Shown here one piece after another: positions 20,543 through 63,141 of a stretch of DNA of 64,000 nucleotides (the stretch's first letter is position 1; each line of letters begins with the position of its first letter). The notes below the pieces were generated by a model. The model saw only the letters and a program-made list of their open reading frames with translations, ran no database searches and had not been told where the DNA came from. The translations under genes and the position numbers were made by a program. Source of the DNA: Acidobacteriaceae bacterium (GTDB taxonomy: Bacteria > Acidobacteriota > Terriglobia > Terriglobales > Acidobacteriaceae); assembly GCA_003134655.1 (NCBI GenBank), contig PLBY01000045.1, positions 160,427 to 224,426 of the forward strand, in the 5' to 3' direction.

Positions 20543-20569
20543 AATGGCATTCGCCAGAATCAAACGACG

Positions 20570-21091
20570 TTACTGGTTAAGCGGATTGAAGACTACGATT
20601 CCCCCTTCGGTGTTGGAGCAGGCGCCCACCGGGTCGACGCGAATCACCGCATCTTCCACGGCGCAGAATCCTCGGATACCCGTCTGGTTGATCGATAGCG
20701 GGACCCCCTTGATGGCATAGCCTACGTTGACGCCGCCCACAGCCGTGCCGGCACCCGTGGTAAACGAGTAACCGCTCTTGCCGCTGGTGGCCGGGTTGCC
20801 GTTGCTGGAGAGCACGGAGTCAATCAAGCAAGCTGTGGTCGAACTGGGAACGCAAGCCACGCCCAACGCGCCGCCCAGGTTCGCCAGAGCCGGAGCATAG
20901 CCTACCGTCGGATAGGCCGTCTGGTAGGTCACTTCGCCAGTGGTGATGGTACGGATGGACGCGACAGCAGACGACTCATTGGCCGCCATGCGGGCGCGCA
21001 GCAAGTTCGGAATCGCGATAGCTGCGATGATCAGGATGATAGCTACTACGATGAGCAGCTCGATCAGCGAGAAACCTTTTTGTTTTTTCAT
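20570..21091 (-). CDS. Type IV pilin-like (major pilin/pseudopilin) protein, copy 1
   Basis: MKKQKGFSLIELLIVVAIILIIAAIAIPNLLRARMAANESSAVASIRTI prepilin peptidase motif and helix. Confidence 0.93.
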   Translation of the reverse strand: MKKQKGFSLIELLIVVAIILIIAAIAIPNLLRARMAANESSAVASIRTITTGEVTYQTAYPTVGYAPALANLGGALGVACVPSSTTACLIDSVLSSNGNPATSGKSGYSFTTGAGTAVGGVNVGYAIKGVPLSINQTGIRGFCAVEDAVIRVDPVGACSNTEGGIVVFNPLNQ

Positions 21092-21192
21092 CTAACTTCC
21101 TCCTAAGATTTAATGTTTGCTGGTGATACAAAGGGCCGCGAGTTAGGGCTTGCTGCCCTGTGAAGTTACCGCCTTCTCACGCAATTTGAACG

Positions 21193-21714
21193 TTACTGGT
21201 TAAGCGGGTTGAAGACCAGGACGCCCGGTTCGGTGTTGGCGCAAACGCCGGCTGGGTCGACGCGAACCACTGCATCTTCCTCAGCGCAGAATGCGCGGAT
21301 ACCGGTCTGGTTGATCGAGAGCGGAACCGCAACCACTGTGTAGCCGGAGTTGACGCCGCCCACAGCCGTGCCGGCACCCGTGGTGAACGAGTAACCGCTC
21401 TTGCCGCTGGTGGCCGGGTTGCCGTTGCTGGAGAGCACGGAGTCAATCAAGCAAGCTGTGGTCGAACTGGGAACGCAAGCCACGCCCAACCCGCCGCCCA
21501 GGTTCGCCAGAGCCGGAGCATAGCCCACCGTCGGATAGGCCGTCTGGTAGGTCACTTCGCCAGTGGTGATGGTACGGATGGACGCGACAGCAGACGACTC
21601 ATTGGCTGCCATGCGGGCGCGCAGCAAGTTCGGAATCGCGATAGCTGCGATGATCAGGATGATAGCTACTACGATCAGCAGCTCGATTAGCGAGAAACCT
21701 TTTTGTTTTTTCAT
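21193..21714 (-). CDS. Type IV pilin-like protein, copy 2 (tandem paralogue)
   Basis: Nearly identical to 20570..21091 over the first ~120 residues; same prepilin motif. Confidence 0.93.
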   Translation of the reverse strand: MKKQKGFSLIELLIVVAIILIIAAIAIPNLLRARMAANESSAVASIRTITTGEVTYQTAYPTVGYAPALANLGGGLGVACVPSSTTACLIDSVLSSNGNPATSGKSGYSFTTGAGTAVGGVNSGYTVVAVPLSINQTGIRAFCAEEDAVVRVDPAGVCANTEPGVLVFNPLNQ

Positions 21715-29362: not shown

Positions 29363-29410
29363 CCGGGTGCCCCATTTCTCGCGCGTTCTTTGCGCGAGAA
29401 GTGGGGATTT
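29363..29410 (-). repeat. 48-bp hairpin element family D, copy D1
   Basis: Minus strand AAATCCCCACTTCTCGCGCAAAGAACGCGCGAGAAATGGGGCACCCGG; 42/48 identical to D2 at 52881..52928. Confidence 0.9.
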
Positions 29411-30790: not shown

Positions 30791-30893
30791 CTACCCCTCC
30801 GGCGCCTCTACAAGCCTATCAGGGAGTTCTCGACAAGCTTCCAAACGCCAGCGAAGGCCTGAGTTCAACATCGTGGGTCGTCGTGGCCCATTG

Positions 30894-31092
30894 GTCCCGG
30901 AGGGACCTCTGATAGTAGCCCGCCGCTTTAGCGGCGGGTGAAACCGAATGCTGATACCGTGCCGTAGGCACGGCTGAAACGCACCCAATCCCATGCGCCC
31001 GATTTCAACCGTCCCTACCGGGACGGAATTCCTTTGCAGCACGCATACCCGGCGTTGAAACGCCGGGCTACTCTCAAACGTCCCTCCGGGAC
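30894..31092. repeat. Cassette of six short hairpins
   Basis: GTCCCGGAGGGAC, CCCGCCGCTTTAGCGGCGGG, CCGTGCCGTAGGCACGG, CCGTCCCTACCGGGACGG, CCCGGCGTTGAAACGCCGGG, GTCCCTCCGGGAC in ~200 bp. Confidence 0.85.
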
Positions 31093-31102
31093 CCTCACCC
31101 TG

Positions 31103-36211: not shown

Positions 36212-36291
36212 GTGGGGCGCGGGCACTGATGCCCGCAGCTTTTGACCGTGCTGCCCCTCGGTGATGCGGAGTATTGCGTTACCATAGGGAT

Positions 36292-37977
36292 GTGGCTGGA
36301 TATTTTGTGGAGAATTTCGGCTGCCGCGCCACCCAGGCTGACGGCGCCGCCCTCGAACGTCAGTTCGAAGAGCGCGGTATCGTGCGCGCGTCTACTCCGG
36401 CACAAGCTTCCGTGGTCGTCATGAATACCTGCACGGTGACCGCGGGCGCGGATCAGGATGCGCGCGCGGCCATCCGGCGAGTGCGGCGACAGAATCCCAA
36501 TGCGCGCATCGTCGTGACGGGATGCTACGCGCAGCGCGCACCGGAAGAAATTGCGGCGCTGCCGGGCGTGAGTCTGGTCATCGGCAATTCGCACAAGCAT
36601 CAACTCGCAGAAATCGTCAGTGCCACCGCAGCCGACTTAGCTGGTGAGCCTGACGCTTCGGTTTTGCAGCAGCGCGATGCTTCGGTTTCTGAGCAGCGAG
36701 ACGCTTCGGTTCCTGCGCAGCGCAACGCTTCGGTTTTTGAGCAGCGCGACGCTCCGGTTGCTGAGCGGCGCGACACTTCGGTTCTTGCGCAGCGCGACCC
36801 TTTGGATTTTGGGTGGCGCAGCGCTTCTAGCGCTGCGATAGAGCCTGCCTCTCATCCCAGGGCTTTAGCCCCTGAGGGACTTGCATTCGTTCCTCTGACA
36901 ACCCTGACAGCTTCGCCCGGAAGCCCCATCTTCGTCTCCGACATCTTCGCGCATACCGAACTGCTGGCCGCGCCCGTTTTCGATGCCGCGAATGAACGTA
37001 CGCGCCCTAATCTCAAAGTCCAGGACGGATGCGACAACCGCTGTTCTTTCTGCGTGATCCCTTATGTACGAGGACAGAGCCGCTCGCTGGAGATCGATCG
37101 GATCCTCCGCGAGGTGAATGGACTGGTCGAGTCCGGCTATCGCGAAGTTGTGATCAGCGGAATCAATTTGGGGAGATGGGGACGGGATTTAGCCGTCAGC
37201 TCTCAGCCTTCAGCTCTCAGCAAAGCTAGCCTACGACCAACGCCTAACGACCAGGGACTGACAACTCTCATCCACGCCATTCTCTCTGAGACTGCTCTCG
37301 AAAAACTTCGGATCTCTTCGGTCGAGCCGATGGACTGGAGCGACGAACTGATCTCGCTGGTCGCGTCGTCACCGCGCGTTGCCAAGCATGCACACGTGCC
37401 CATGCAATCGGGCAGCGACGCAGTGTTGCGGCGCATGCATCGCAAGTATCGTCCGTGGCACTATCGCGAAAAGATCGAGAAGATTCGCGCGGCCATGCCC
37501 ACCGCCGCGATCGGCGCCGACGTGATGGTCGGATTCCCGGGCGAAACCGGCGCTGAATTCGAAGCCACGCGCCGGATGATTGAAGATCTGCCGTTCACCT
37601 ACCTGCACGTTTTCACGTACTCCGCGCGTCCTGGAACTCCGGCGGCGGCGATGCCGAATCAAGTTCCAGTGCACCTGGCCCGGGAACGGAACCGCATCTT
37701 GCGCGAGTTGGCAGCCGAGAAGAAGTTAGAGTTTATGCGCGGCTTCGTCGGCAAGCCAGTAGAAGCGATCACGCTGAGTGTCGTGGGTAGCGACGCCGAT
37801 GGCGATTTCACCGAAGCCCTCACCGACAACTACCTGAAGCTGCGCTTGCGCGGACGGCACAAGGCGAACCGCTGGATGCGCGCTCAGATTGACGACGTGG
37901 TAAATGGCGCACTGGTGGGGCGAGAAGTTGTTTTGACCTCCGGAATACAATGTCATCGAGAAGAAGGCGTGGCTTAG
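36292..37977 (+). CDS. mtaB: tRNA (N6-threonylcarbamoyladenosine(37)-C2)-methylthiotransferase
   Basis: VMNTCTVTAGADQDARAAIRRVRRQNPNARIVVTGCYAQRAPEEIAAL, NLKVQDGCDNRCSFCVIPYVRGQSRS; two in-frame non-conserved inserts; GTG start inferred. Confidence 0.9.
   Translation: MAGYFVENFGCRATQADGAALERQFEERGIVRASTPAQASVVVMNTCTVTAGADQDARAAIRRVRRQNPNARIVVTGCYAQRAPEEIAALPGVSLVIGNSHKHQLAEIVSATAADLAGEPDASVLQQRDASVSEQRDASVPAQRNASVFEQRDAPVAERRDTSVLAQRDPLDFGWRSASSAAIEPASHPRALAPEGLAFVPLTTLTASPGSPIFVSDIFAHTELLAAPVFDAANERTRPNLKVQDGCDNRCSFCVIPYVRGQSRSLEIDRILREVNGLVESGYREVVISGINLGRWGRDLAVSSQPSALSKASLRPTPNDQGLTTLIHAILSETALEKLRISSVEPMDWSDELISLVASSPRVAKHAHVPMQSGSDAVLRRMHRKYRPWHYREKIEKIRAAMPTAAIGADVMVGFPGETGAEFEATRRMIEDLPFTYLHVFTYSARPGTPAAAMPNQVPVHLARERNRILRELAAEKKLEFMRGFVGKPVEAITLSVVGSDADGDFTEALTDNYLKLRLRGRHKANRWMRAQIDDVVNGALVGREVVLTSGIQCHREEGVA
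36647..36814 (+). repeat. 24-bp tandem repeat (about 7 units) inside mtaB, octapeptide DASVxxQR
   Basis: gacgcttcggttttgcagcagcgc / gatgcttcggtttctgagcagcga / gacgcttcggttcctgcgcagcgc / aacgcttcggtttttgagcagcgc / gacgctccggttgctgagcggcgc / gacacttcggttcttgcgcagcgc / gaccctttggattttgggtggcgc. Confidence 0.92.
36807..36880 (+). repeat. Interspersed palindromic element family A, copy A2 (inside mtaB CDS)
   Basis: TTTTGGGTGGCGCAGCGCTTCTAGCGCTGCGAT...CCCAGGGCTTTAGCCCCTGAGGGAC. Confidence 0.88.
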
Positions 37978-51397: not shown

Positions 51398-51471
51398 GTA
51401 CCTCAGGGGCTAAAGCCAGGATTCATATTTGAGTCCAGATCGCAGCGCTGAAAGCGCTGCGCCACCCAAAA
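51398..51471 (-). repeat. Interspersed palindromic element family A, copy A3 (intergenic)
   Basis: gtacctcaggggctaaagcc...atcgcagcgctgaaagcgctgcgccacccaaaa. Confidence 0.88.
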
Positions 51472-51592
51472 GCAGTTCTCCCTGCCGCCACCAAGAGCAA
51501 TATTCACTGCCGCCACCAAGAACTAGAGCACTGAGAGCGATTTTCACTGGCCCGCCACCTGAGAGCAGTCTTCACTAACGCCACCAAATATT
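51471..51592. repeat. Degenerate ~25-bp tandem repeat adjacent to A3
   Basis: agcagttctccctgccgccaccaag / agcaatattcactgccgccaccaag / ...agcagtcttcactaacgccaccaa / atattcactggcacc. Confidence 0.7.
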
Positions 51593-52880: not shown

Positions 52881-52928
52881 AAATCCCCACTTCTGCCACA
52901 AAGAACGTGGCAGAAATGGGGCACCCGG
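52881..52928 (+). repeat. 48-bp hairpin element family D, copy D2
   Basis: AAATCCCCACTTCTGCCACAAAGAACGTGGCAGAAATGGGGCACCCGG. Confidence 0.9.
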
Positions 52929-61868: not shown

Positions 61869-62040
61869 GGTGCTCCTCGTAATGACTCGGCGTGAGTGGA
61901 TTCACGCGGCGTTGCGGATTGCCAGGCAGGGCTATTATTTCGTGCCGAAGGTGCCGGGTCAATGGTGAGCAGCGGAATTCGGTGGTTCGGGTAGGAGTCG
62001 TGGGCCGGGTTCTTCCCTGCTGTAAAATGCGGGCTCCAGC

Positions 62041-63141
62041 ATGAGTTCGCAAGCAAAATCGCACGCCGAGTTGCGGGATCGAATGTTTCGTACGCAACTG
62101 CTGGCTTGGTATGACACGCACGCGCGCGATCTGCCGTGGCGCGAGAGTCACGATCCGTACCGGGTGTGGCTGTCGGAGATCATGCTGCAGCAGACGCGGG
62201 TGGCGGCGGTGATTGTGCACTATCACGAGTTTCTGCGGCGGTTTCCTACGGTGGAGAAGCTGGCGCGTGCGCGGGAGGCTTCCGTGTTGGCTGTATGGAG
62301 CGGCCTGGGATATTACCGGCGGGCACGCATGCTGCACGCGGCAGCGAAGGTTGTGGTGCGGGAACGGGGAGGGAAGTTTCCAGAAACAGCGGAGGGATTG
62401 CGGGAGTTGCCCGGAGTGGGGCGCTATACGGCGGCGGCGATTGCCAGCATTGCATTTGGCGAGGCGGTCGCGGTTGTAGACGGGAATGTGGAGCGGGTGC
62501 TGCAGCGGTTTTCTGGGCAGAGGCTGGTCGGGGAGGAATTCTGGCTGGCAGCGGAGACGTTGCTGGATCGGGCACGTCCGGGAGATTTCAATCAGGCGAT
62601 GATGGAGCTGGGTGCGACCGTGTGTACGCCGCGGGCACCGGCATGCCTGACTTGCCCGGTGGTGGAGTTGTGCGCGACGCGCGGGGAGTTAGAGGGATCG
62701 GCAAAGAAGTCGCGACAGAAGAAGAGGGAGATTCATTACGTTCTGGCTCTCCGCGAGGACGCGGTATTTCTGGTGCAGAGAGCGCACAACGCGCGGCTGA
62801 TGGCGGGGATGTGGGAGTTACCTGAGGTGAATGGAGGTGCCCCAGGGGCTAAAGCCCGGCCCAACGGGGCAGGCAAGATCGCAGCGCTGAAAGCGCTGCG
62901 CCACCCAAAAACAAAAAACGGTGACCATGCCGATGCCTGCTTCACGCTCAAACATTCGATCACGGTAACGGACTACACCGTACGGGTTTGGCGAGTGGCT
63001 GCGGCCTCACAGGAGGAAGGCAAATGGATTCCGGCGGAGAGATTGTCGCGGGTTGCGCTTACGGGGCTGGCGCGGAAAATTCTGCGGAAAGCGGGAATCA
63101 GTCCTCCCCATCCGAAAGGCCGGTTGCGTCATCTAAAGTAG
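62041..63141 (+). CDS. mutY: A/G-specific adenine glycosylase
   Basis: DLPWRESHDPYRVWLSEIMLQQTRVAAVIVHYHEFLRRFP, LPGVGRYTAAAIASIAFGEAVAVVDGNVERVL, Fe-S CxxxxxxCxxC...C pattern; insert of family A element near C-terminus. Confidence 0.95.
   Translation: MSSQAKSHAELRDRMFRTQLLAWYDTHARDLPWRESHDPYRVWLSEIMLQQTRVAAVIVHYHEFLRRFPTVEKLARAREASVLAVWSGLGYYRRARMLHAAAKVVVRERGGKFPETAEGLRELPGVGRYTAAAIASIAFGEAVAVVDGNVERVLQRFSGQRLVGEEFWLAAETLLDRARPGDFNQAMMELGATVCTPRAPACLTCPVVELCATRGELEGSAKKSRQKKREIHYVLALREDAVFLVQRAHNARLMAGMWELPEVNGGAPGAKARPNGAGKIAALKALRHPKTKNGDHADACFTLKHSITVTDYTVRVWRVAAASQEEGKWIPAERLSRVALTGLARKILRKAGISPPHPKGRLRHLK
62836..62910 (-). repeat. Interspersed palindromic element family A, copy A4 (inside mutY CDS)
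   Basis: ggtgccccaggggctaaagcccggcccaacggggcaggcaagatcgcagcgctgaaagcgctgcgccacccaaaa; translated GAPGAKARPNGAGKIAALKALRHPK. Confidence 0.88.

Follow-up and report, generated by a model that had tools for sequence, protein, structure and literature searches.

The window analysed here, by which we mean the whole stretch of 64,000 nt, carries on its forward strand an mtaB gene in which a tandem array and a palindromic repeat, all in frame, separate the UPF0004 domain from the radical-SAM domain. The gene product matches TIGR01579 (E 2.1e-117) with 392.9 bits, above the equivalog cut-off of 357.05, and both the UPF0004 and the Radical_SAM domain are matched. The cysteines of the auxiliary and radical-SAM clusters (C17, C53, C84, C253, C257 and C260) are invariant in 36 sequences, and the predicted fold matches the structures of MtaB, MiaB and RimO. 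The insert leaves the reading frame open, as the initial annotation had stated. In the structural model most of both domains have pLDDT values above 85, with values below 50 at residues 131-202 and, in a second linker, at residues 310-318. The protein is predicted to fold and to function as MtaB ordinarily does, its floppy loop being longer, and we infer that the enzyme is made and active despite the insert, which is best read as a tolerated, disordered spacer. The features concerned are as follows.

36274-37977, forward strand: mtaB (tRNA t6A37 C2-methylthiotransferase), TTG start, 567 aa
36652-36795, forward strand: six 24-bp tandem units (DxSVxxQR octapeptides), found with Tandem Repeats Finder
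36796-36819, forward strand: seventh, hybrid unit (DPLDFGWR), which includes the element leader TTTTGGGTGGCGC
36807-36877, forward strand: element A, a 71-nt dispersed palindromic repeat, TTTTGGGTGGCGCAGCGCTTCTAGCGCTGCGAT...AGGGCTTTAGCCCCTGAGG, read as FGWRSASSAAIEPASHPRALAPE
36817-36837, forward strand: hairpin 1 of element A (sequence and fold), with 9-bp perfect arms CGCAGCGCT / AGCGCTGCG and loop TCT
36860-36871, forward strand: hairpin 2 of element A, GGGCT / AGCCC of its 3' module
36878-36938, forward strand: 3' part of linker 1, which in relatives contains a 7-bp array of the GGAAGCC type and is 21 bp shorter in the window than in the relative G016 (alignment; Tandem Repeats Finder on orthologues)
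37185-37290, forward strand: second hypervariable linker, within the radical-SAM domain, whose length in the genus is 35-101 aa; a 7/14-bp tandem array occupies 37191-37221 (Tandem Repeats Finder)
51441-51470, reverse strand: further copy of element A (hairpin), pattern match G000:C126:211867-211896
51460-51521, reverse strand: tandem array of 25 bp x 2.4 adjoining this copy's leader edge, parallel to the mtaB array (Tandem Repeats Finder, sequence)
62829-62916, reverse strand: element A in frame, in opposite orientation, inside mutY (ORF about 62026-63138, forward strand; TIGR01084, E 2.5e-86)

The initial annotation had described seven octapeptides followed in frame by a palindromic element and had placed the insert at 36647-36895; translation, Tandem Repeats Finder and the genomic copies of the element bear this out, and the span is correct to a few bases. 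The units read DASVLQQR DASVSEQR DASVPAQR NASVFEQR DAPVAERR DTSVLAQR DPLDFGWR, and Tandem Repeats Finder places an array of 24-bp period at 36652-36819, with 6.3 to 7.0 copies and a best score of 227 (in a 72-bp reading). This array is found once in the genome. Its last unit contains the leader of element A, as had been noticed, and the consensus of the six non-hybrid units equals the first 24 nt of the element at 19 of 24 positions without gaps, a match reached by 3 of 5000 shuffled units and by 16 of 4977 random 24-mers from the window. The array and the palindrome in mtaB are far beyond chance. This match and the arrays at the leader edges of many other copies (see below) uphold the earlier suggestion that the array grew from the edge of the element. 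G016, the closest relative (92% identical over most of MtaB), carries the same element at the same place next to two octads, against six and the hybrid in the window, array lengths being those of the assemblies, which are all drafts (the window's own genome comprises 164 contigs, with 5.2% contamination). Because G016 has two octads where the window has six, the array must have grown recently.

It could be argued that the octads form a repeat with a function in the protein, such as a tail that binds RNA or protein, and that this repeat was selected in this lineage and lies near element A only incidentally. Such a role would suit the regular DxSVxxQR chemistry, with an arginine at each eighth residue, and the length and frame of the array, but the differences between units are distributed 5/3/3 over the codon positions, with no third-position bias, and the sister species has two units only, while the other orthologues have none. 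Moreover, the octad unit resembles the edge of the element, and arrays of the same kind adjoin intergenic copies of element A, so that we regard selection for a functional repeat as very unlikely. The differences between the window and G016 at codon positions 1/2/3 number 14/7/57 in the core and 5/2/5 in the octad region; between the window and L008 they number 34/25/158 in the core, 10/6/12 in linker 2 and 5/5/10 in the element. Since the octads, linker 2 and the element differ in this respect from the core, the inserts are under weaker protein-level constraint, albeit on small numbers of differences. The element region is identical over 86 nt between the window and G016, which could hint at nucleotide-level constraint or conversion. 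However, an 83-nt identical run elsewhere in the gene equals it, and we make no claim of gene conversion or of sequence-level selection on the MtaB copy.

The genus to which Candidatus Sulfotelmatobacter and its allies belong carries element A as a palindromic repeat that is dispersed and non-autonomous. Pattern and BLAST searches give about 50 copies in the 8.0-Mb genome, with no match to a reversed control pattern. Aligning 51 copies reveals sharp borders, conservation rising from about zero to 1-2 bits at TTTTGGG and dropping after GAGG, and a 3' module, GGGCTTTAGCCCC, lies about 50 nt from the element start in 42 of the 51. As single-stranded DNA the element folds into two main hairpins (z = -3.1). 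Of 37 genomes of the genus, 34 carry it, and it is absent from all 24 genomes searched outside the genus in the same order and class; the reversed pattern has no hits. Acidobacteriaceae bacterium SbA1 and Candidatus Sulfotelmatobacter MAGs are among the relatives named by protein search. No transposase linked to element A was found: a Y1_Tnp transposase was rejected as its partner, since none of the five Y1_Tnp genes in the genome has a copy within 1.5 kb. The sole hit of an Rfam scan of the window is an Acido-Lenti-1 RNA (RF01687) at 31048-31093, distinct from element A, with an inverted partner copy at 30893-30939. The window also holds two 300-nt direct repeats (20567-20866 and 21190-21489) that are 88% identical.

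In its own genome element A lies in frame in at least six real genes, namely mtaB, a large PKS/FAS gene, a GtrA-family gene, rlmN, mutY and a penicillin acylase family gene, those beyond mtaB being assigned by profile and PDB matches. The in-frame copies are always in a linker or spacer. That of the PKS/FAS protein lies in the linker between acyltransferase and ketosynthase, that of RlmN has TIGR00048 matches on both sides and falls, by PDB homologues, between the N-terminal domain and the radical-SAM domain, and that of the penicillin acylase separates the alpha chain from the serine with which the beta chain begins. Relatives without the insert exist for four of the genes other than mtaB: RlmN (G021 and G022), MutY (G013), penicillin acylase (G011, G022, G021, G002 and G013) and the GtrA-family protein (G016 and G011); other relatives have the insert. 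One further copy follows the YidD domain, near the end of a YidD ORF; a long frame on the element's strand around the copy in L061 was dropped, YidD being on the other strand. For most of the remaining copies a good coding signal on both sides is lacking.

Across the genus the insertion in MtaB is shared but patchy. Conservation of the insert across distant orthologues, by which it would be a native domain, was not found: of 30 same-genus orthologues, 8 have element A, at the same position and in the same frame, and every out-of-genus MtaB sequence inspected is without it. Since other species share the insertion, it is older than this species, and of the two parts of the insert the octad array alone is recent. 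The remark that homologues normally have a short linker here also needs qualification, for linker 1 spans 42 to 117 aa in the 30 orthologues (the window having the longest, 117 aa) and holds other repeats elsewhere, and a second linker behaves alike. On the MtaB tree the presence of element A requires a minimum of 5 changes, at least 3 of them forced by well-supported branches, and a single old insertion is therefore not proven by these sequences. Perhaps MtaB did not gain the element once, in an ancestor, but by repeated independent insertions at a single hot site, as the patchiness would suggest, all the more so because other MtaB lineages have another palindrome, element B (peptide RKERARMGHP), in this very linker. 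Six MtaB copies, however, have a common 3' junction, 8 nt before the conserved TTCGTTCC, and the loop TCT is shared by the MtaB copies of the window, G016 and L035 and occurs in no other own-genome copy among those listed, and we consider repeated gain to be rather unlikely, though a serious alternative. Two tandem copies of element B are present in MtaB of L094, and a roughly 21-bp array adjoins its 3' edge in L100. Arrays of 7 bp occur in many MtaB linkers, and arrays of period 7 or 14 are nearly confined to linkers 1 and 2 (Tandem Repeats Finder on orthologues). Given element B and these arrays, MtaB has two hypervariable linkers that collect repeats. The element B family (CCGGGTGCCCCATTTCTCGCG...) also occurs at 29363-29410 and 52881-52928 of the window, and an element-B-like peptide, EKIPTSAAKSAAEMGHP, is in frame in an M20-type peptidase (L039:3-1667, reverse strand).

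The array in mtaB exemplifies a polar process. Of 50 own-genome copies of element A, 14 have a tandem array that extends from the flank into the leader edge, none has one that runs out of the 3' edge of the hairpin and 1 has one that runs out of the 3' edge of the whole element, against 33 of 2840 random positions (1.2%; p about 7e-15 for the leader edge); the thresholds of Tandem Repeats Finder influence these counts but are identical at both edges and at random positions. Among 71 copies in nine other genomes the leader edge leads by 7 to 1, in copies that are partly orthologous to the own-genome set and thus not fully independent of it. The edge test was devised after the first arrays had been seen, so the other-genome set is the fairer check, and the signal there comes mostly from G016 (5 of 7). 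Array units measure 13-46 bp and differ between loci yet mostly contain TTTTGGG, so each array seems to have arisen locally from flank and leader. Within genes, the RlmN relatives L215, L217 and L219 have Q-rich 12- or 24-bp arrays adjoining the leader edge, and a 15-bp array lies at that edge of the penicillin acylase copy. The array periods in genes (24, 12/24 and 15) are multiples of three whereas those between genes are mixed, which is suggestive of frame selection in these few cases. Element A has the look of a general source of additional protein sequence.

Arrays are so common at the leader edge that one might reverse the order of events and suppose that element A prefers to insert beside tandem arrays that already exist. 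The element's own leader (TTTTGGG or TTTTGGGTGGCGCAG) is nevertheless part of most array units, RlmN relatives that have no element have no array either, and L213 has the element with hardly any array. The array of the window is also larger than that of G016, although G016 already has the element, making an array-first order highly improbable.

We therefore favour, with considerable confidence, a scenario in which element A landed in the MtaB linker and its leader edge was then tandemly duplicated, with the frame kept and the product tolerated in a floppy loop. In an ancestor a copy would have entered this linker in frame, between the UPF0004 domain and the radical-SAM domain, to be kept in some species and lost in others, as the linker is unstructured and accepts any in-frame length. 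DNA of the leader edge, flank plus leader, would subsequently have been duplicated in tandem, presumably by slippage or unequal exchange, and steps of 24 bp would have survived because they keep the frame, giving octapeptides. It is appealing to speculate further that element A itself dictates the polar amplification, either through a property of the leader or, for example, through an HUH-type enzyme that nicks one hairpin shoulder, such that flank and leader are repeatedly duplicated on that side only. We put this forward tentatively, as something rather less than an even bet. If true, each copy of element A that enters a gene seeds a new in-frame protein repeat, and the element is a mobile generator of coding minisatellites.

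The closest parallels to these captures are the Rickettsia palindromic elements (RPEs; Ogata 2000 and 2002) and intragenic REP elements. The RPEs, as summarised in PMC10969869, are dispersed palindromes that lie in frame in unrelated real genes and are apparently translated. Element A is like the RPEs of that summary (PMC10969869) in being dispersed and palindromic with no known transposase, and in its apparently translated, in-frame copies in unrelated real genes: about 50 copies with two hairpins, six of them in frame in real genes, with insert-free homologues for MtaB, RlmN, MutY, penicillin acylase and GtrA. It differs in phylum and sequence and in length, at 71 nt versus about 150 by the description given there (PMC10969869). 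It also differs in that most copies are intergenic (six clearly in frame of about 50) and in its one-sided tandem arrays, of which we know none for RPEs. Intragenic REP elements of the GTAG/CGTC families are small palindromes that favour DNA-repair and RNA-modification genes and can sit at the same site in related species, as in recB of Xanthomonas (PMC3733652). Element A resembles them in residing in MutY, RlmN and MtaB at a site shared between species, but it has no terminal GTAG or CGTC tag, the consensus of 51 copies starting with G-C-TTTTGGGTGG and ending with GAGG, and no linked RAYT (Y1) gene.

Pneumococcal BOX elements are palindromic repeats whose internal tandem units vary in number. 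In BOX one fixed boxB module is repeated, whereas the unit of the element A arrays differs at every locus and includes flanking DNA. The cyanobacterial heptanucleotide STRR repeats form tandem arrays of 7 bp, as do the repeats in both MtaB linkers of relatives, but the MtaB arrays lie inside a coding gene and are read through in 21-bp steps. Literature searches on acidobacterial intragenic repeats, heptamer repeats and MtaB linker insertions returned nothing specific, and to our knowledge one-sided tandem growth across the element junction is new and undescribed for RPEs or intragenic REPs. In-frame capture of palindromes has been described as peculiar to Rickettsia and a few REP-rich bacteria, and it is now seen in a soil acidobacterium with a large genome. 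The acidobacterial captures affect housekeeping genes of RNA modification and DNA repair, with insert-free relatives and with a sister species whose array has fewer units. The one-sided arrays offer a tangible path by which a mobile palindrome can lead to new protein repeats; because they are polar, the mechanism is open to test.
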